Assembly: GCA_015233895.1 (NCBI GenBank)
Contig: JADFXG010000035.1
Span: forward strand, 1 to 32,694
Reading direction: 5' to 3'
DNA from: Nitrospirota bacterium
Lineage (GTDB): Bacteria; Nitrospirota; Thermodesulfovibrionia; Thermodesulfovibrionales; Magnetobacteriaceae
DNA length: 32,694 nucleotides
The notes under the pieces are model-generated. The model searched no databases and had not been told where the DNA came from. It saw nothing but the letters and a program-made list of their open reading frames with translations. Every line of letters starts with the position of its first letter. Position 1 is the first letter of the stretch. Both the position numbers and the translations under genes were made by a program. Below are positions 6,782 to 30,870 of this stretch, one piece after another.

Positions 6782-7807
6782 CTATTTTTTTGAGAAACTA
6801 AACCCCTTTTGAAACAGTTCTACGCATACATCCACCACATCCTCATCATAATAAATTCCTCTGTATGATGTTATTTCCGACATAGCAGCGTCAATGCCAA
6901 GAGCGGCTCTGTACGGCCGATGCGACGATATGGCCTCTACAACGTCGGCAACGGCTATTATCCGGGCACCTGACAAAATATCGTCTCCCCTAAGTCCCCT
7001 CGGATAGCCTGAACCGTCCAATTTCTCGTGGTGCTGATACACAATGTCGGCTATCATCCACTCAGATTCGATGTTTTTGAGGATATTGTATCCGACCTCG
7101 CTGTGGGTCTTTAAGAGGTTGAATTCAATTTCAGTGATTTTCCCCGGTTTTGAAAGTATCTCCGCAGGAACGTTAACCTTACCTATATCGTGAAGTATCG
7201 CAGCTACATAAAAACCCTCTGCCTCATTGTTGCTAAACATCATAGCCATAGCAATTTCACACGTAAGCTCTGCCACCCTCCTTTGGTGTCCGGCAGTGTA
7301 TGGGTCTCTTGTCTCCGCCATGGTTGAGAGAGCCTCTACAGTACCATAAAACAAACGCTTCATCTTGAGGAGATTTAGTTCAACCATATTCTGTTGTATT
7401 AATCGCTTTTCCAACTGCATCTGTCTCTTTAGCGCTAAGTGATTCTTAGTGCGCAGTTTAACTATGTTTTGATTTATTGGTTTAGTGATGTAATCTGCAG
7501 CGCCAAGCTCCAATCCGATAGTTTCATCCGCTCCGTCACTCATAGCCGTTACAAATATCACTGACACATCGTTTAGTGTAGGCTCTTTCTTTAAAAGGCT
7601 ATACAGCTCATAGCCATTCATATCGGGCATTACCACGTCAAGAAGTATAAGGTCAGGCTTTATTGCCAAGGCTATCTCGAGGGCTTTCTTAGCGTTAGTG
7701 GCAAAGTACGTTGTGTAACTGTCATGCAACGCATCATTGATTATTTCAATGTTCGAGACAGCGTCATCTACTATCAGTATCTTTTGTTTTTCAATATCTT
7801 CAGACAC
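6782..7807 (-). CDS. response regulator with HD-GYP c-di-GMP phosphodiesterase domain
   Basis: Output protein of the phosphorelay: a receiver domain (about residues 5-125; [19 protein letters not shown] with the phospho-Asp, [13 protein letters not shown]) followed by a helical linker and an HD-GYP domain (HDIGK at about 205, [14 protein letters not shown] at about 265), so it should hydrolyse cyclic di-GMP. The catalytic HD and GYP motifs are intact. I place the start at GTG 7807 (MSEDIEKQ), because the paralogous gene upstream starts with the same MSENIEKQ and GGGAG lies 5 nt before it; an ATG at 7837 would overlap the previous gene by 38 bp. The GTG overlaps the previous stop by 8 bp. Last gene of the three-gene operon. 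Confidence 0.9.
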
Positions 7808-9403
7808 TTTTGCTCCCGGAGGCTGTATGTTTTTCAATTAGTTTACATAACTCCTCTGCCGCAAACGGTTTTGAAATATAGTCATCCATGCCTGTTGCCA
7901 GACAAAGCTCCACATCTTCCTCACTTGCGTGTGCAGTTACGGCTATTATCGGTATCCCTGCATTTATCTTAGCATCTTTTGTATTTCTTATGTGCCTTGT
8001 TGCCTCTAACCCGTCCATAACCGGCATCTGTATATCCATAAGGACAAGGTCAAATGGTCTCTGAGCTAACATATCGAGAGCCTCTCGCCCGTTTACAACT
8101 GCTACCGGCGTATATCCGCGCCTTTGCAGAAGTCTGATGAGAAGTGTTTGGTTAACAATATTGTCTTCTGCTATTAAAATATTAAGATGCGCTCGAAATT
8201 CCATCATACTTTGGCATATCGGAACCGGCTCCGGTGTTTGCTGAAGTAAAAAATTGGCTATAAAGTAAAATGTGCTGCCTTTGCCTGAATCGCTCTCTAC
8301 CCAAATATCACCACCTGTCATACAGAGAATCTTTTTTGCTATTGCAAGGCCCAGTCCCGTACCTCCATATCTCTTTGTCATAAAATGATCACATTGAGTG
8401 AAGCTATCAAAAATCATATCAAAATTTTCCTTTGAGATTCCTATTCCGGTATCAGACACCGAAAACAATAAACGAGTCTCTTTATCAGACAGTGCAGGCA
8501 AGTCTTTGCCATTTACTGTTTCCGGAGCTACGGTTGCTTTTAAATCTATACTGCCTCTTTCGGTAAACTTCAGAGCATTGCTTATAAGATTAGTAAGCAC
8601 ATATTTTAGCTTTCTGACATCCCCCTTTAACGTTGCAGGCACATTTGGAGAAATTTCGGTACTAAGTTTTATCCCCCTGCTCTGCGCCTGAGCTATAAAC
8701 GGCTCAAGTGTGACATTTATCATAGAGAGTACATCAAAATCCACCTCCTCTGCCACCATTTTTCCGGCTTCTATGCTGGAAAAATCAAGGATGCTGTTTA
8801 TCAGACTGAGCAAATTGTGTGATGACTCTTTAACCATCATGAGATATTCTCTCTGTTCGGTGTCCAGTTTGGTATCCAAAACAAGTTCAGTAAACCCTAT
8901 TATGCCGTTCATAGGTGTGCGAAGTTCGTGGCTCATGTTGGCTAAAAATGCGGTTTTTGCCCTGTTTGCCTCCTCTGCCAGTTTTACCTTTAGTATCAGT
9001 TGCTGTTCTATCAACATCTGTCTCTTTAACGCTAAGTGATTCTTAACGCGCAGTTTAACTATGTTTGGATTAATTGGTTTTGTTATATAGTCTACAGCAC
9101 CAAGCTCCAACCCGATGGTTTCATCTGTTTCATGGTTCATAGACGTTACAAACATCACAGGCACATCTTTTAGTGAAGACTCTTTCTTTAACCTGCGGCA
9201 CAGCTCGTAGCCATCCATATCGGGCATTACCACATCAAGAAGTATTAGGTCTGGTTTTACCGTAAATGCTATTTCAAGGGCTTTCTTAGCATGAGTGGCA
9301 AAGTATAGTGTATAAGTGTCTTGTAATACCTCATTGATTATCTCAATGTTTGAAATAGCGTCATCAACTATCAGTATTTTTTGTTTTTCAATATTTTCAG
9401 ACA

Positions 9404-9404
<1 letters not shown>
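7800..9404 (-). CDS. hybrid sensor histidine kinase (REC-HisKA-HATPase-REC)
   Basis: A 534-aa cytoplasmic kinase without its own membrane sensor. Receiver 1 (about 8-125; [11 protein letters not shown]), HisKA with phospho-His in [14 protein letters not shown] (about 160), HATPase ([21 protein letters not shown]; about 265-390), receiver 2 (about 405-525; [19 protein letters not shown]). Phosphate likely comes from the membrane kinase upstream through receiver 1 and passes on to the HD-GYP regulator. The GTG start (9404-9402) overlaps the previous stop as TAGTG and has GGAGGA 4 nt upstream. Receiver 1 and the receiver of the HD-GYP gene are close paralogues even at DNA level, indicating tandem duplication. 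Confidence 0.92.
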
Positions 9405-12883
<3,479 letters not shown>

Positions 12884-13212
12884 GTTACCCTAATCATAAT
12901 CAGCCCTCCACCACCTTTATAAAGACGCCCTTACTTACTCAACCACCTTAAAACAAGCCCTTAAGTAAAGTCAATACATTTTCCCTACCCTTTTACGCCC
13001 TGCACCATTTTTACAATACCCTCCATTTACTACCAAGTAAAAACGTAATAGAGGAGTGTAGCATATGGGGACTTACAGATGACTTACAGATGACTTACAG
13101 ATTGAGAATTTTTTTGCATACTGTGCAGATTTTTGCACATAGTTTTTCCTCACCTGCGTCCATTTGAGGATTATTCCTTACCTTTTTGACAGATGCCTGA
13201 TATAAAAGTTAC
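12884..13212. other. intergenic region carrying the phosphorelay promoter
   Basis: There is no gene in this stretch. It contains the triple direct repeat and -10 box of the phosphorelay promoter, an untranslated leader of about 165 nt, and a palindrome TGTGCA-N6-TGCACA (13122-13139) about 20 bp upstream of the repeats. The palindrome could be an additional operator; no T-run follows it on the minus strand, so it is not a terminator for rlmD. Confidence 0.55.
13055..13102 (-). promoter_or_regulatory. promoter with three 11-bp-spaced direct repeats
   Basis: On the minus strand ATCTGTAAGT occurs three times (ending at 13093, 13082 and 13071), each separated by one base, a strict 11-bp period. 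After the last GTAAG there are exactly 11 nt, then a -10-like TACACT (13060-13055). The repeats cover the -35 region, as expected for an OmpR/SARP-fold activator. The same layout recurs at 25934-25970 and 27497-27533. Confidence 0.65.
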
Positions 13213-24432: not shown

Positions 24433-25782
24433 CTATTTAAGATCACAATTTCGTTTTATTGTTATAGTAAACTGAGCCCCACCATCATTATTTCTGACAG
24501 ATAATACCCCTCCTATTTTTTCCTCAACAATTTTCTTTGCCAAATATAATCCTAATCCAGTTCCATTCTCTGAAGATTTTGTGCTTACATATGGCTCATA
24601 GATTTTATCTATAACATATGCTGGTATCCCACCACCATTGTCTTGTACTGTCACAATTATTTCATCTTCTGTTCCTTTAAGAAAAATCAAAATGGTTCCC
24701 TTATATCCGTTATCTGATAGTTTGTTTTTACTGATTATCGCATCTCTTGCATTGTTAATTAAATTCAACAGTACTTGTTTAAATTCGGTAGAGCAACCAA
24801 CAAATGATAAATAAGATTCACTCCCCTTAATTTTTACTATAATTTCAAGATTATGTGCTTTTCTGTAGGATTCTCCAAACATAAACATTAAATCATCAAT
24901 TATTTTCTTTACGCTGATAATCTGTTGTTTTTTTGCAGGCATTAAAAAATCTCTGAAATTATCTATTGTCTTTGACATAAATTTAATCTGTGAATGAATT
25001 ATCTCAATAGATTTATATAAAGATTCTTTGCTCATTTCATTATAAACGTATGTATCCTTTACATCTTCTACGGTAAGCGATATAGCATTCAAAGGCTGTT
25101 TCCATTGATGGGCTATCATGGATATAATCTCACCCATGCTTGCCATCTTTGATTGCTGTATCAACATTTGCTCATGTTGGTATCTGTTATTCACCTCCTC
25201 TTCTACTCTTTTTTCAAGGTGCTGATTTAAAGATAATAAGTCTTTCTCGACTAACTTCTTCAAATTGATCTCATTTTGTAATTTTTGATTGATAGCTGTT
25301 AGCTCATTTGTACGCTCTAATACCATCTCTTCTAACTTCTCCTTCTCCGCACCTATATTCCTAAATAAAAGGTTAAAGGGTTTATTCAAACCCATTAAAA
25401 AAATTGCTTTATATATAAAATAGTAGGACATAACTTTTAAAATATGCCCAGATACGTTCAGATAGCCATATAAATCTTCATAGAAAGTAAAACAAAGCCC
25501 TGACAGTACTGTGAAAAATATTGAAATTGCTATTAAATCCAAAACATCTTTATGAAAAAATCTCTTGCTTTTAAAAAGTAGGTACTTATTTTCCATATAC
25601 TGACGTGTATTGCATGTGAGAGTAAAAAGGCAAAATGCTATAACTATACAAAACAATTCAACAATCGTATGATATGCTAAATACCCGTAAAGACAGCTTA
25701 AAACTAGAACTAATATTAGGAAACCCAACAAAAAATTACTTTTTAAAACCTTTAAATTATAAGATTTTATTATGTTTTCCAT
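24433..25782 (-). CDS. MASE3-type membrane sensor histidine kinase with shortened sensor
   Basis: A 449-aa kinase anchored by N-terminal membrane helices. The sensor begins like MASE3 (YHTIVELFCIVIAFCLF) and ends like MASE3 (GLCFTFYEDLYGYLNVSGH, YYFIYKAIF...NKPFNLLFRN), but the middle helices that normally follow NKYLLF seem absent: it jumps straight to KSKRFFHKDVLDLIAISI. A long coiled coil (about 145-210) leads to HisKA with IAHQWKQPLNAI (about 226) and an intact HATPase (INNARDAI, DNGGGI, GTGLGLYLAKKI). There is no receiver in cis. ATG at 25782 has GAGGG 4 nt upstream. Upstream lie an 11-bp-repeat promoter and a Crp/Fnr-type site, so it may answer to both. Confidence 0.88.
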   Translation of the reverse strand: MENIIKSYNLKVLKSNFLLGFLILVLVLSCLYGYLAYHTIVELFCIVIAFCLFTLTCNTRQYMENKYLLFKSKRFFHKDVLDLIAISIFFTVLSGLCFTFYEDLYGYLNVSGHILKVMSYYFIYKAIFLMGLNKPFNLLFRNIGAEKEKLEEMVLERTNELTAINQKLQNEINLKKLVEKDLLSLNQHLEKRVEEEVNNRYQHEQMLIQQSKMASMGEIISMIAHQWKQPLNAISLTVEDVKDTYVYNEMSKESLYKSIEIIHSQIKFMSKTIDNFRDFLMPAKKQQIISVKKIIDDLMFMFGESYRKAHNLEIIVKIKGSESYLSFVGCSTEFKQVLLNLINNARDAIISKNKLSDNGYKGTILIFLKGTEDEIIVTVQDNGGGIPAYVIDKIYEPYVSTKSSENGTGLGLYLAKKIVEEKIGGVLSVRNNDGGAQFTITIKRNCDLK

Positions 25783-25804: not shown

Positions 25805-25915
25805 CTATTCAACTTGTGTTTCAGATACTATCTCTCTAATAATCCCCTCCAGTTCTTCTGATGTCCTGAAAGTTTTTGCTTCTTCATTATTTAGTTCCTC
25901 ATTCTCCCCTAAAAA
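25805..25915 (-). pseudogene. truncated copy of the 52-aa small ORF
   Basis: The frame ends NNEEAKTFRTSEELEGIIRE then IVSETQVE and a TAG at 25807-25805. About 75 bp are nearly identical to the end of the intact copy (27236-27394), and the sequence just upstream matches that copy's leader (GAGGAACTAA). The roughly 110 bp between them in the intact copy are missing, so the start and the first half of the protein are lost. No in-frame start codon is present. It is a remnant of a duplicated promoter-ORF cassette. Confidence 0.6.
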
Positions 25916-25933: not shown

Positions 25934-25970
25934 ATAATAAATGAAGGTATCTTACATATTACTTACAAAT
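25934..25970 (-). promoter_or_regulatory. promoter with two 11-bp-spaced direct repeats
   Basis: Minus strand ATTTGTAAG (25970-25962) and ATATGTAAG (25959-25951) lie 11 bp apart. After the last GTAAG come exactly 11 nt, then TATTAT (25939-25934) as -10. It faces the small-ORF remnant and the MASE3 kinase. Confidence 0.6.
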
Positions 25971-26129: not shown

Positions 26130-26175
26130 ATCATAGCAACACAAAGCCCTGAATTGTGTAATGCAAACTACAAAA
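26130..26175 (-). promoter_or_regulatory. Crp/Fnr-type site and -10 box ahead of the MASE3 kinase
   Basis: Half-palindromic site TTGTGTA-N8-TACAAAA (26154-26175; spacer ATGCAAAC), nearly identical to the perfect site at 27074-27095. On the minus strand 18 bp separate it from TATGAT (26135-26130). The site centre falls about 41.5 bp upstream of the expected start, the class II activator position. It overlaps the last codons of the Crp/Fnr gene. Confidence 0.5.
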
Positions 26176-26872
26176 TAAAATCATTTTCAAAAAATTTTGT
26201 GTTAAAATAATAGTATTTCTTTTTAACATCCAAAATATAGCCTTCTTTTCTCCAATGTGCCAGCACTGATGTGACTGTCTCGCGAAACAAACCTGTCATA
26301 TCAGCAATATCCTGATGGGTTACTTGAATTTCTATCTTGATTCCGTTAGGGGTTTGTGCTACAAATTTACTTGCTAACCTTTGAAACATCGCTTTTATTC
26401 TCTGTTCAGCCTTATTATAGGTTAATCTTTTAATAATATCATTTGCTTCTCTTACTTTTGAACATAAATCCGTCATTAAATAGTGAACAAAGCTGGGTTC
26501 TGAACTAACCAAAAGCCAAAAATCATTTTTTGACATAATTGCAACAAGGGTGTTCTCCACAGCAATTACCGTTGCGCTTGTTGTTTGATTATCAATCAGA
26601 GACATTTCTCCAAAATATTCACCGATACCTCTTACTGCAATCGTTACATCTTTCCCATCATCGTTTATAACATTTACTTTAACCTTGCCAGTTAAAATCA
26701 TGTACAGTTGTTTATTTTCACTACCGTGCTGGACAAGCACTACATCCTTCTTATACTTTCTAATCAGTATTTTATTAGATATCTGTTCTATATCAGCAAC
26801 ACTTAGACAGGATAAAAGCGGCACTTTTCTCAATAGACAGATAGCATTGTCACTCTTGCAGTATTTTTTCAT
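26168..26872 (-). CDS. Crp/Fnr family transcriptional regulator
   Basis: A 234-aa regulator: cyclic-nucleotide-binding-like beta barrel (about residues 15-135; LYMILTGKVKVNV, GEYFGEMSLIDNQTTSATV), dimerisation helix (about 140-170), and C-terminal winged helix-turn-helix (VTHQDIADMTGLFRETVTSVL, written here in two parts: VTHQDIADMTG / LFRETVTSVL; about 187-207). No Fnr-type N-terminal cysteine cluster is visible (only isolated Cys), so it is probably not an oxygen-sensing Fe-S Fnr; the effector is unknown. ATG at 26872 overlaps the stop of a 49-aa upstream ORF as ATGA and has no good ribosome site of its own, which suggests coupling. Matching palindromes at each end of the gene suggest autoregulation. 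Confidence 0.9.
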   Translation of the reverse strand: MKKYCKSDNAICLLRKVPLLSCLSVADIEQISNKILIRKYKKDVVLVQHGSENKQLYMILTGKVKVNVINDDGKDVTIAVRGIGEYFGEMSLIDNQTTSATVIAVENTLVAIMSKNDFWLLVSSEPSFVHYLMTDLCSKVREANDIIKRLTYNKAEQRIKAMFQRLASKFVAQTPNGIKIEIQVTHQDIADMTGLFRETVTSVLAHWRKEGYILDVKKKYYYFNTKFFENDFIL

Positions 26873-27235: not shown

Positions 27236-27394
27236 TTAATCTTGAGTTTCAGATACTATCTCTCTGATAATCCCCTCCAGTTCTTCTGATGTCTTGAAAG
27301 TTTTTGCTTCTTCTGATGAAATATTTTTTACGGTGCCAATTATAGAGTGTTGACCATCATTTCTATAAATGCTCAAGATATATGTGGATTTCAC
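27236..27394 (-). CDS. 52-aa conserved-looking small protein
   Basis: GTG start (27394-27392), GAGGA 6 nt upstream, TAA at 27238-27236. Sequence features: YILSIYRND at the start, then a Gly/Ile strand (HSIIGTVKNI), then an acidic helix (SEEAKTFKTSEELEGIIREI). The strand-strand-helix pattern and the IYR...GTV...F.S.EEL spacing resemble small uncharacterised bacterial ORFs of the 'RIYRR...GVVE...F.S.EELW' kind, function unknown. A truncated copy lies at 25805-25915, showing that the cassette was duplicated. It is preceded by a 15-codon ORF with a GTGA overlap and by an 11-bp-repeat promoter. Confidence 0.6.
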   Translation of the reverse strand: MKSTYILSIYRNDGQHSIIGTVKNISSEEAKTFKTSEELEGIIREIVSETQD

Positions 27395-27438
27395 GATGTT
27401 TCCTCATATATTTGTACCTTTATTGTTAGCGACTCCAT
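27391..27438 (-). CDS. possible 15-aa leader peptide
   Basis: ATG at 27438 lies 7 nt after GAGGA; the peptide is MESLTIKVQIYEETS and its TGA overlaps the GTG of the 52-aa ORF (GTGA). A well-placed ribosome site and overlap suggest translational coupling, but so short a frame may be chance. Confidence 0.3.
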   Translation of the reverse strand: MESLTIKVQIYEETS

Positions 27439-27496: not shown

Positions 27497-27533
27497 ATTT
27501 TAAACAATAGTATCTTACAGATCACTTACAGAT
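27497..27533 (-). promoter_or_regulatory. promoter with two 11-bp-spaced direct repeats ahead of the 52-aa ORF
   Basis: Minus strand ATCTGTAAG (27533-27525) and ATCTGTAAG (27522-27514), 11 bp apart. Exactly 11 nt then precede TAAAAT (27502-27497). The site lies 67 bp beyond the stop of the BTAD regulator gene, so it is positioned to be controlled by that protein. Confidence 0.65.
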
Positions 27534-27600: not shown

Positions 27601-30600
27601 TCAATTATTTTCCATAATAGACTTATAAAGATTCTCTGTTTTCACAGATGGGCTGATAGCAAGTACAGTGTTAAATATGTGCTTACACTTATTGTATGTG
27701 GCAAGCGCCTCTCCTTTTAAACCGGCTTTCAAGTAACACGTTATTAGATGGCTGAAACATTCCTCCCGAAGATAATCCGTATCCAATGATGTCTTATAAC
27801 ATTCTATGGCTTTGCCACACTTATTGACACTTTCGTAGAATGATCCTGCTTTATTACAAATACGGATGAACTCGTCCTTCAAACGCTCTCTTTGGTATGC
27901 TGCCCATGACTGGTCATGTTCACCCGGAAGAAAGTCGCCTTTATAAATGTTTAAGGCTTTTTTGTATAAATTATCTATTTTCTGCTCAACGTCTGATAAC
28001 GCTACCGTACTCTCTAACTCATCTATAATATCCCGCAACGACCACACATCTATCCAGCAATAGTCAGAATTAATAGATACGTGGTTATCTGACATAATAA
28101 TAGCGTCGGAATCGAATCTTAAAAGTTTACGTAAGCGATGTAGTGTAGTATGAAAAGATTTCGTCGCCAGGTCACCGTCCACATCGGGCCACAAGGTGTC
28201 AGACAACTGCGTAATGCCTACGTCTTTTCCTCCATACGCTATTATTGCCTTCAGCATTTCAAGAGGTTTTCGTTGGGTTTTGCCCGAAAAGTTGACTAGT
28301 TTTTCATCTACTGTTATTGCAAATCTTCCGAGCGTATAAACTTTTAGCGGATATGGCCAGTTTTCATCTTTATAGCTACCGGGGGTAATATTATGAAGCC
28401 TGATCATTTCCTTAATAAAATCCGTTTCAATTCCTTTTTCAATAGCCGCTATGCATAAACGTTCCGTGGAACTTTGCAAGAAAAACGTAAATCTCATCCC
28501 AATTTCTCTGGAGAGCGTAACGTCGCTTTTAATTTTTTCAACAAATTGCTTCTCGTTATTTTCATAAAAAGATATGAGGGCCTCAAGCATTGTGCATATG
28601 TACGTGGGAAGCGTACTGCCGGTAATAACGCCAAAATTTAAGCTCTCTTTTATATGATGTCTTGCCTCCTCATACTGTCCAGACTCAGTGTATATATATG
28701 CAATACTATATTCAAATATCCCAAGGATCAAATAAGAACCTAAGTCCACCGTTAACTGTATGTTTATTTCAGCGTGATCAATAGCTGACTTGTATTGGCC
28801 ACGGCTAAGGGCTACAAGTGAAACAATCTGATGATAATATATATTGCCAAAACATTGCACGTTGACCATGGAAGATTCCATTTTCTTCAGATATTTTTCT
28901 GCAGCTTCATTGTCGCCAATAGCGAGGGAAATATAAGTGGCCGTACCGAAAAGCATTAAATCCAGCATATGTACATCATACTCTCTTGCAAGTTCTAATC
29001 CCTCTTCCACAACCTTCAGTCCCTGTCTATATGATGCAGAATAAAAAAAGTATAGCGATTGTGACCTGCAGAACATCAATCTTGCTAATAGGTTTCCTTT
29101 TGACTTTTCGATAACTGGAAACAAGGTTTCAATTATAACACCGGCTTTGTATATCTTGCCGGTATAGAGATAGTATAGAATTAGGTTATGGCCGAGAGAC
29201 ATAAGTTGTATAATATTTTGAGAATGGCGTAATATTTTTAACACTTCCTCTTCCCAGTAAGGCATGTCTTGATGCCAAGGCTGTCGAAACATAAGTGCTG
29301 AGAATATACTTGAAGATAATCGCTGTCTAAGTTCTAATGGGATATCCTGTATGGAGAAACTCAGCGATAAAGGAGTGTCTTTATGCCTATTGGTCAATTC
29401 TTCATACTCGTTAATCCAATAATCCAGAGGGTGAAAGTCTTTCCATTCATAAACAAAAGTATCTACTATACTGCAAAATGCAGATAACAACCCTTTGAGG
29501 TCATCCGTAGATTTAAATTTTTCGTACGAGATCTCTAATATTTTGCGTGTTTCTGCAGGGTTGGTTTGCAGCATATTCATTCCTTTCCAATAAAGCAGCC
29601 ACGGTTGCTTTTCGATGAAGTCATCAGGGATAGCAGCAAACCATCTGTTAAGTATAGCACCCCTACCATGGGCAATCATGGACGCTACATGTTTAAGCAC
29701 AATAGTCGTGAGCTTTTCCCAGTCCGACATGTCTATACATAGTTGGACAGCAGCCTCGAAATACCCGTCTTCTTCTAAAATATCTTCAGCCCTTCGCACT
29801 ATTTCATCTTCGTTTTGTCTAAAATACTCTTTGGCATGGGCACGTAAAAAAGCATGAAACAGATCGTGATACACAAACATGACTCCACTATGAGTATGTT
29901 TTTTAGTAATAAAATACTGGCGGTGTTTCTCTGATAAGATTTTACGGCTATGCACGTATCCAGTCAATCTCTCCGCCATAGGAATGCTGAATTCCTGAAG
30001 GTATGCCGTCTTAAACAAGAAATCCCGAACATTGCTTTCTGTTTTTTCTAATATCTCTCTGGCAAAATAATCAAAAACTACTTCGTTTACTTCTGTTTTT
30101 TCTAAAAAGGACATAAGAGATGCAATATTTCCTCTTTCTATCGCCAATATTAATCCTGCCACCCAACCTTCCATCTTTTTGTGCAATTGCCTGATTATTT
30201 CCTCCGGCACCTCGATTTTTGTAAAAGCCCTTACCAGATTTAAGGTATCGTCCATGGTAAACAAAAGGTCATTCCATTCAAAAAAGCCTAAATCACCATT
30301 TCTTCTTAAATCGGCATACTCTATTGGAGGCTCTAACCTGCTTATTACGATAGAGGCAAATCCCTCAGGCATTAAAGAAAATCCTATGCCCAGAACGTCA
30401 TGAATCGCTGAATCTGCAAGAGTATTTTGATAATTATCGAAAACAATTAAGAAAGGGGCGTGAGTTTCAGTTGAGCGGTAAATGTCCTCTTCTTTTACAG
30501 CCTCCGCTACCAATGTAAATAATTTTTTAAAATATCTGGCAGCGAATGCCGGCACGTTTTTAAAATATTCAGATGTAAATTCCGGCAACTCTGCATTCTT

Positions 30601-30870
30601 TTGGTGCAGCAGCGTTTTAACGGCCAGAGTCATATAGGAGAAAAAAGTTGAAACGTCTATATCAGTTCCGTCCATATGATACCAGAGAAAGGGATTGCTA
30701 CGGCTTTTAAGATAGCTTGCAGCTAACGTGGTTTTACCAGAGCCCGCCGGGGCTGACATCCAAACAATCCTCTTTTGCAAAGAACTGTCAATAGCTTTAA
30801 AACATAACTCCCGCTCTATAACATCTTGTAAAACCGGAGCTGTAATCTTTGTTAAACCAGCCTGTGCCAA
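27601..30870 (-). CDS. MalT-like ATPase transcriptional activator with OmpR/SARP-type winged helix and BTAD
   Basis: A 1089-aa cytoplasmic STAND-type regulator. N-terminal P-loop NTPase (APAGSGKTT, residues 40-48; Walker B-like FLIVFDNYQ, about 155), a winged-helix connector, a long TPR-like helical region (about 390-840), then at the C-terminus an OmpR/SARP-like winged helix (YTLGRFAITVDEKLV ... LSDTLWPDVDGDLATKSFHT, split here; about 845-940) and a bacterial transcriptional activator domain (about 945-1085). Such proteins use an inducer-triggered ATP switch and bind direct repeats. TTG at 30870 is preceded by AGGGGTGG. It has its own consensus promoter, and the repeat-bearing promoter of the next gene lies just downstream. 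Inducer unknown. Confidence 0.9.
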   Translation of the reverse strand: MAQAGLTKITAPVLQDVIERELCFKAIDSSLQKRIVWMSAPAGSGKTTLAASYLKSRSNPFLWYHMDGTDIDVSTFFSYMTLAVKTLLHQKNAELPEFTSEYFKNVPAFAARYFKKLFTLVAEAVKEEDIYRSTETHAPFLIVFDNYQNTLADSAIHDVLGIGFSLMPEGFASIVISRLEPPIEYADLRRNGDLGFFEWNDLLFTMDDTLNLVRAFTKIEVPEEIIRQLHKKMEGWVAGLILAIERGNIASLMSFLEKTEVNEVVFDYFAREILEKTESNVRDFLFKTAYLQEFSIPMAERLTGYVHSRKILSEKHRQYFITKKHTHSGVMFVYHDLFHAFLRAHAKEYFRQNEDEIVRRAEDILEEDGYFEAAVQLCIDMSDWEKLTTIVLKHVASMIAHGRGAILNRWFAAIPDDFIEKQPWLLYWKGMNMLQTNPAETRKILEISYEKFKSTDDLKGLLSAFCSIVDTFVYEWKDFHPLDYWINEYEELTNRHKDTPLSLSFSIQDIPLELRQRLSSSIFSALMFRQPWHQDMPYWEEEVLKILRHSQNIIQLMSLGHNLILYYLYTGKIYKAGVIIETLFPVIEKSKGNLLARLMFCRSQSLYFFYSASYRQGLKVVEEGLELAREYDVHMLDLMLFGTATYISLAIGDNEAAEKYLKKMESSMVNVQCFGNIYYHQIVSLVALSRGQYKSAIDHAEINIQLTVDLGSYLILGIFEYSIAYIYTESGQYEEARHHIKESLNFGVITGSTLPTYICTMLEALISFYENNEKQFVEKIKSDVTLSREIGMRFTFFLQSSTERLCIAAIEKGIETDFIKEMIRLHNITPGSYKDENWPYPLKVYTLGRFAITVDEKLVNFSGKTQRKPLEMLKAIIAYGGKDVGITQLSDTLWPDVDGDLATKSFHTTLHRLRKLLRFDSDAIIMSDNHVSINSDYCWIDVWSLRDIIDELESTVALSDVEQKIDNLYKKALNIYKGDFLPGEHDQSWAAYQRERLKDEFIRICNKAGSFYESVNKCGKAIECYKTSLDTDYLREECFSHLITCYLKAGLKGEALATYNKCKHIFNTVLAISPSVKTENLYKSIMENN

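Follow-up and report, generated by a model that had tools for sequence, protein, structure and literature searches.

Organization of the locus

The window, i.e., the whole stretch of 32,694 nucleotides analyzed here, belongs to contig C35 of a 3.71 Mb Nitrospirota MAG (G000). Its minus strand carries a large regulator gene and three promoters in which directly repeated half-sites precede a -10 element:

27601 to 30870, minus strand: regulator of 1089 aa, with an N-terminal MalT-like STAND NTPase, a TPR-like middle and a C-terminal SARP-like wHTH-BTAD
27514 to 27533, minus strand: promoter 1 operator, two half-sites ATCTGTAAG(TG)ATCTGTAAG, from sequence reading and the genome pattern search
27497 to 27502, minus strand: promoter 1 -10 element TAAAAT, 11 nt past the second half-site, in line with the class-wide -10 enrichment
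27236 to 27394, minus strand: small ORF of 52 aa, from an unnamed small-protein family recurrent behind these promoters
26168 to 26872, minus strand: Crp-like regulator, following promoter 1 and the small ORF, cotranscription putative
25951 to 25970, minus strand: promoter 2 operator, two half-sites ATTTGTAAG(TA)ATATGTAAG, a partial duplicate of promoter 1
25934 to 25939, minus strand: promoter 2 -10 element TATTAT
25813 to 25885, minus strand: remains of a duplicate of the small ORF, behind promoter 2 (96% identical over 73 bp)
24433 to 25782, minus strand: MASE3 sensor histidine kinase, the first full-length gene behind promoter 2
13072 to 13102, minus strand: promoter 3 operator, three half-sites ATCTGTAAG with an 11-bp period
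13055 to 13060, minus strand: promoter 3 -10 element TACACT, 11 nt past the last ATCTGTAAG unit
9404 to 12883, minus strand: hybrid histidine kinase (HisKA-HATPase, two receiver stretches, Hpt), the first gene behind promoter 3
7800 to 9404, minus strand: histidine kinase with two receiver stretches, second in the promoter 3 run
6782 to 7837, minus strand: receiver-HD-GYP protein (HD_5), a predicted c-di-GMP phosphodiesterase at the end of the promoter 3 run

An earlier note on this DNA had described repeats exactly 11 bp apart, followed after 11 nt by TAnnnT, at three places, and all three were confirmed in the sequence. The minus strand reads ATCTGTAAGTGATCTGTAAG from 27533 to 27514, with TAAAAT 11 nt further on at 27502 to 27497, and ATTTGTAAGTAATATGTAAG from 25970 to 25951, with TATTAT at the same distance. 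The earlier note was also correct in placing the stop of the regulator gene 67 bp from the first promoter, behind which the 52-aa ORF and then the Crp-like gene follow. Promoters 1 and 2 are partly duplicated, both in the small ORF (73 bp at 96%) and in the promoter surroundings (76 bp at 74%); they are therefore not independent, and the window holds approximately two independent origins of the arrangement.

Occurrence of the repeats in the genome and its relatives

Genome-wide counts were obtained by pattern searches, with the pattern read backwards as a control. The scan that the earlier note had proposed, with TGTAAG-N5-TGTAAG-N11-TAnnnT, returned six exact matches in the own genome (C35:27497, C35:25934, C35:13055, C4:114505, C5:42030 and C49:392) and none in the backwards control. 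All six are intergenic or in promoter position. Searching for ATCTGTAAGTNATCTGTAAG with up to 3 mismatches gave 8 matches, again with none in the control.

Outside the window, the C4 site directly follows a second MalT-like/BTAD regulator and precedes a Crp-like gene, whose cotranscription is putative here too, and the C5 site is followed by a DUF3391-HD-GYP gene. Behind the C49 site there is a short stretch that, by eye, resembles the start of the MASE3 kinase, with 52 bp at 83% nucleotide identity to the window copy. It stops early near the contig end (L032 1-620, G000:C49), possibly representing a broken copy. The small ORF, sensor kinase and c-di-GMP phosphorelay named earlier as the regulon are thus indeed found behind the sites, but the gene set is wider, as it also includes the Crp-like and the DUF3391 HD-GYP genes.

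The C4, C5 and 13055 sites match one another only within the box, over up to 35 bp, and the first two are two more independent origins outside the window. The view that the identical spacing is not due to chance is upheld by the six exact matches against none in the control, but two of the window promoters count as partial duplicates. One could still regard the sites as a chance or local duplication artefact with no regulatory role, as promoters 1 and 2 share partly duplicated sequence and the C49 region is similar to that around 25934. Nevertheless, the other three sites have just the box in common, and variants of the motif are found in several phyla, where a -10 element that was not selected for follows at a fixed distance (see below), and hence we find this explanation hardly credible.

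Across 149 genomes (the own genome and 148 relatives), the full pattern was found 24 times exactly, the six own matches included, against 2 in the control, and the exact matches were concentrated in the own family. The sites adjoin BTAD-type genes in relatives G003, G016, G018, G020, G061 and G146, and a BTAD homologue is commoner in site-bearing genomes than in others (p = 8e-4). Within this set, G131 has a site with no BTAD homologue detected, and G002 has a homologue with no exact site found. Moreover, G003 retains the 13055-type site in front of the hybrid kinase orthologue (L084), and in G014 (L077) a comparable site precedes a gene with a similar N-terminus.

Domain composition of the regulator

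The C-terminal part of the window regulator was taken as the query for searches and structure prediction:

27604 to 28383, minus strand: SARP-like domain, residues 830-1089
28126 to 28158, minus strand: recognition helix, residues 905-915 (SFHTTLHRLRK), with H907, T908, T909 and H911 as covarying residues

Pfam assigned a BTAD to the protein (8.5e-15). In NCBIfam, residues 8-430 matched MalT (NF003420, 2.5e-53), below the whole-protein cut-off, and residues 842-1087 matched AfsR (1.5e-12). The C-terminal 260 residues were modelled by AlphaFold2 with a pLDDT of 93, and the best PDB folds for this model were the AfsR activation complexes on the afsS promoter (8k60 and 8hvr, TM 0.73), followed by EmbR. 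In the PDB sequence search, a profile of the wHTH only (110 aa) had no match at 0.001, and the longer domain profile reached AfsR.

The protein thus combines an OmpR-like winged helix with a BTAD, as evidenced by the BTAD match, the AfsR profile match and the AfsR/EmbR fold over the whole domain, and is associated with 11-bp direct repeats at a fixed distance from the -10 element. In addition, the DNA-contact residues T88, R94 and K95 of AfsR are conserved as T908, R914 and K915 in the HMM alignment. In SARP proteins the SARP domain stands at the N-terminus; here it makes up residues 830-1089 of 1089. Pfam detected neither a LuxR-type HTH at the C-terminus, as expected for MalT/LAL regulators, nor a Response_reg match, as expected for PhoB/OmpR-type proteins with a receiver. 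The earlier note had taken the regulator to have the sole such DNA-binding domain in the window. The genome encodes four Trans_reg_C proteins, and none of them is on the window contig.

Repeats at homologue loci in several phyla

We then considered 78 loci around homologues of the C-terminus of the window regulator, from several phyla. The homologues were found via the peptide DxLWP[DE]x[DE]GD, and the sample is limited to the best 80 of 492 relatives. In an unbiased scan that covered all hexamers repeated with spacers of 3 to 10, ATCTGT-N5-ATCTGT came first, with 33 copies in 31 of the 78 loci against 0.1 expected; TGTAAC-N5 and TGTAAG-N5 repeats were also prominent. A consensus, ATCTGTAASNNATCTGTAAS, was derived from the same loci after the hexamer scan, the original TGTAAG motif having come from the window alone. 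With up to 3 mismatches it gave 64 sites in 54 loci, whereas shuffles gave 0.2 and the reversed control 1, and approximately one third of the loci have no site at this threshold. The locus of a homologue from the cultured Desulfonema magnum (L099) has three sites. In a second, partly overlapping set of 30 relative loci, 17 had a site at up to 4 mismatches, against 2 in the reversed control. The class-wide half-site is ATCTGTAA(C/G), which corrects the narrower TGTAAG motif proposed earlier.

The sites lie mostly 3' of the regulator gene and are nearly all oriented like it: a good site was found within 300 nt 3' of the stop for 30 of 83 BTAD genes, compared to 8 of 451 other ORFs. Furthermore, the -10 element (TGnTAtaaT), which had played no part in the selection, has its TA at exactly 11 nt in 52 of the 64 sites, with TGn in front. 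Chance was rejected as an explanation on the counts in the own genome, in the relatives, in the hexamer scan and for BTAD adjacency, each against its control. When the downstream genes were tallied by Pfam, no shared function emerged, with PAS sensors, PEP-CTERM and other secreted or surface proteins each seen no more than twice.

Covariation of half-site bases with the recognition helix

Bases 7-9 of the half-site differ between loci (AAC, AAG, AAT, ACC, TAC, GAC and GGG), and it was therefore possible to ask which positions of the protein vary with them. With clustering at 75% identity, columns 80, 82, 84 and 81, which lie in the recognition helix, rank 1, 2, 3 and 5 of approximately 230 variable columns in the domain alignment, and all four are among the first seven at 62% and 55% clustering. 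The single pairings are base 9 with column 80, base 8 with column 81 and base 7 with column 84. In the HMM alignment, the covarying columns correspond to R87, T88, Y89 and S91 of AfsR, and the invariant R912 corresponds to R92. In the AfsR structure, T88 and R92 touch bases, and R87 and S91 touch phosphates (PMC10936776).

Out-of-sample confirmation was partial. Six loci with xGG (L180, L190, L192, L194, L196 and L197) all have E at column 80, against 1 of 8 other loci (Fisher p 0.002), and all have a residue other than His at column 84, against 2 of 8 (Fisher p 0.009), both tests being hand-worked and all covariation P values approximate, as the loci are kin by descent. The GGG training loci likewise have E at column 80 and non-His at column 84. 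The residue that follows this E at xGG sites is V, I or M. The simplest rule is broken by L178 (GTGAC with His), L191 (GTTAG with His) and L189 (AAC with Phe). Judging from this agreement between bases and helix, it is most likely the SARP-like wHTH that directly reads the repeats, and the covariation is the strongest indirect evidence for it. The earlier attribution of the repeats to SARP/BTAD activators is therefore well sustained, as adjacency, the unselected -10 element, helix covariation and the AfsR-like fold all agree; the repeats, their spacing and these four lines of support are computed results.

The same geometry is also found at Pho boxes in the own genome. Before pstC and pstS (L035 3846-3862 and 16909-16936, G000:C6), TGTAAC-N5-TGTAAC lies 11 nt from the -10 element, which means that 11-bp repeats are not exclusive to the BTAD regulator. 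Similar TGTAAC-type pairs are present at C3:149304 and C32:3280. As OmpR-fold regulators bind direct repeats of this kind and the genome has its four Trans_reg_C proteins, the sites could be operators of an OmpR/PhoB-type response regulator instead of the BTAD protein. Nevertheless, those four genes are located elsewhere than on the window contig, the Pho boxes end the half-site in C rather than G and have no ATC before TGTAA, the sites gather next to BTAD genes in different phyla, and their bases vary together with the recognition helix of the BTAD protein. Altogether, we consider a response regulator a very improbable owner of the sites.

Possible contribution of paralogous regulators

A SARP-type activator being favored as the protein behind the sites, it may be asked which one is concerned, as the genome holds more than one. 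The C4 regulator has a recognition helix nearly identical to that of the window protein (FNTTLHRLR and FHTTLHRLR, respectively), and the promoter downstream of it has the same half-sites. Moreover, G003, in which the 13055-type and C4-type sites are kept, has a C4-type homologue (570-aa open frame) and one more frame of 867 aa. These observations would fit operators run by the C4 paralogue, or by both proteins, and not mainly by the window protein. On the other hand, the window gene lies only 67 bp from promoter 1, and sites adjoin its close homologues at L090 and L091, which are 62% identical to it. We regard a leading role of the C4 paralogue as possible, if somewhat doubtful. A regulon tied to the window BTAD protein, as put forward in the earlier note, is hence supported in its link to a SARP-type protein, but the C4 paralogue may share or own it. 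Regarding a third large BTAD gene, on C17, no relaxed site above chance was found nearby, and this paralogue is accordingly not tied to the motif.

Two further observations concern genes of this type. In G003, the C4-type regulator at L085 5273-8400 (G003:C263) is in two frames of 481 and 542 aa, a split caused by mutation or by an assembly error. In the own genome, L089 1560-2944 (G000:C32) encodes a separate short SARP-like protein, partly N-masked, which is divergent from a gene preceded by a TGTAAC repeat pair.

A small-protein family behind the promoters

The 52-aa ORF behind promoter 1 belongs to a family of 50-90 aa with the core YIVRIYRRxxxxPxxLVGxVEEVGxxGKKAFxNxxELWxIL. A member is found downstream of the regulator in approximately 30 of the 78 loci, in many of them directly behind the site, and the family occurs behind these promoters in different phyla:

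7153 to 7341 of locus L104: further family member

A search with the small protein alone found it in 45 of 396 genomes of the phylum. Among the genomes also covered by the BTAD survey, 17 of 19 have, by our own reading, a copy on the same contig at approximately 5 kb or less from the BTAD match. In 19 loci of this kind, the best upstream match has 5 mismatches or fewer in 12, against 3 in the reversed control. The family had no Pfam, NCBIfam or PDB match; its model has three strands followed by a helix, and comparison with PDB folds gave no meaningful match. By analogy with afsS for AfsR, this family is the predicted recurrent first target of the regulators.

A 15-codon leader ORF at 27391-27438 precedes the 52-aa ORF, whose GTG start codon overlaps with the TGA of the leader (GTGA). 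This overlap suggests that the leader and the 52-aa ORF may be translationally coupled.

Comparison with known systems and proposed mechanism

The closest known system is AfsR on the afsS promoter of Streptomyces coelicolor (PDB 8hvr, 8k60 and 8jke; PMC10936776). AfsR likewise joins STAND (NOD), TPR and SARP parts in one protein, uses the same DNA-binding fold with equivalent DNA-contact residues, and acts at a pair of 11-bp direct repeats that extend into the -35 region, with a small-protein gene as its target, as predicted here. In contrast to AfsR, the order of the parts is reversed in the window regulator, with the SARP part at the C-terminus and a MalT-like N-terminal part; the half-site is ATCTGTAA(C/G) instead of the afs box; and the hosts are Nitrospirota and other non-actinobacterial phyla. 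The YIVRIYRR family, lacking a Pfam or NCBIfam model, is compared with AfsS by its position.

With MalT/LAL regulators the window protein shares the N-terminal STAND region, whereas their LuxR-type C-terminal HTH is replaced by the wHTH-BTAD. PhoB and its Pho boxes offer the OmpR-fold wHTH and the 11-bp direct repeats in place of -35, but the window regulator has no receiver, its half-site has a final G and a leading ATC, and the sites adjoin BTAD genes and not phoB. EmbR of Mycobacterium tuberculosis (PDB 2fez/2ff4) has the same wHTH-BTAD fold, with a C-terminal FHA and no STAND/TPR.

Taken together, the repeats are very probably operators of SARP-type activators that carry a C-terminal wHTH-BTAD on a MalT-like STAND/TPR protein, and they would replace the -35 element, as for AfsR on afsS. 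From these features, we infer binding, activation and signal sensing, as well as the choice between the C35 and C4 proteins at each site. Two (or three) wHTH-BTAD protomers would occupy neighbouring 11-bp half-sites. Similarly to AfsR at the afsS promoter, the protomers would hold RNA polymerase on a -10 element, often extended by TGn, exactly 11 nt downstream. The STAND/TPR part presumably senses a signal, and would then free or oligomerize the DNA-binding part. In the own genome, the proposed regulon comprises the small protein, the MASE3 kinase, the run of hybrid kinase to HD-GYP protein, the Crp-like gene and the DUF3391 HD-GYP gene. The genes turned on by the activator would thus encode further signalling proteins, predicted c-di-GMP phosphodiesterases among them. 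The unnamed small protein may, in turn, exert feedback on either the regulator or RNA polymerase.

Significance

To our knowledge, SARP activators have been studied almost only in actinobacteria. In the open-access literature, which as opposed to subscription papers was the scope of our search, no description of the motif or of the small protein outside actinobacteria was found. We lean towards seeing here a widespread new module of non-actinobacterial phyla, consisting of a MalT-like STAND-TPR protein whose SARP part is C-terminal, a readable code between bases and helix and a dedicated small first target, in a manner similar to AfsR-afsS. The genome titles of the hosts name Nitrospirae, Deltaproteobacteria, Gammaproteobacteria, Scalindua, Poribacteria, Rokubacteria and others. 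For the large family of MalT-like STAND proteins with a SARP part, the results define an operator and the layout of its promoters, and they add part of a recognition code as well as a small protein that recurs as the predicted target. Regulons of such activators could be read from sequence in uncultured genomes, and both the code and the role of the small protein are directly testable.
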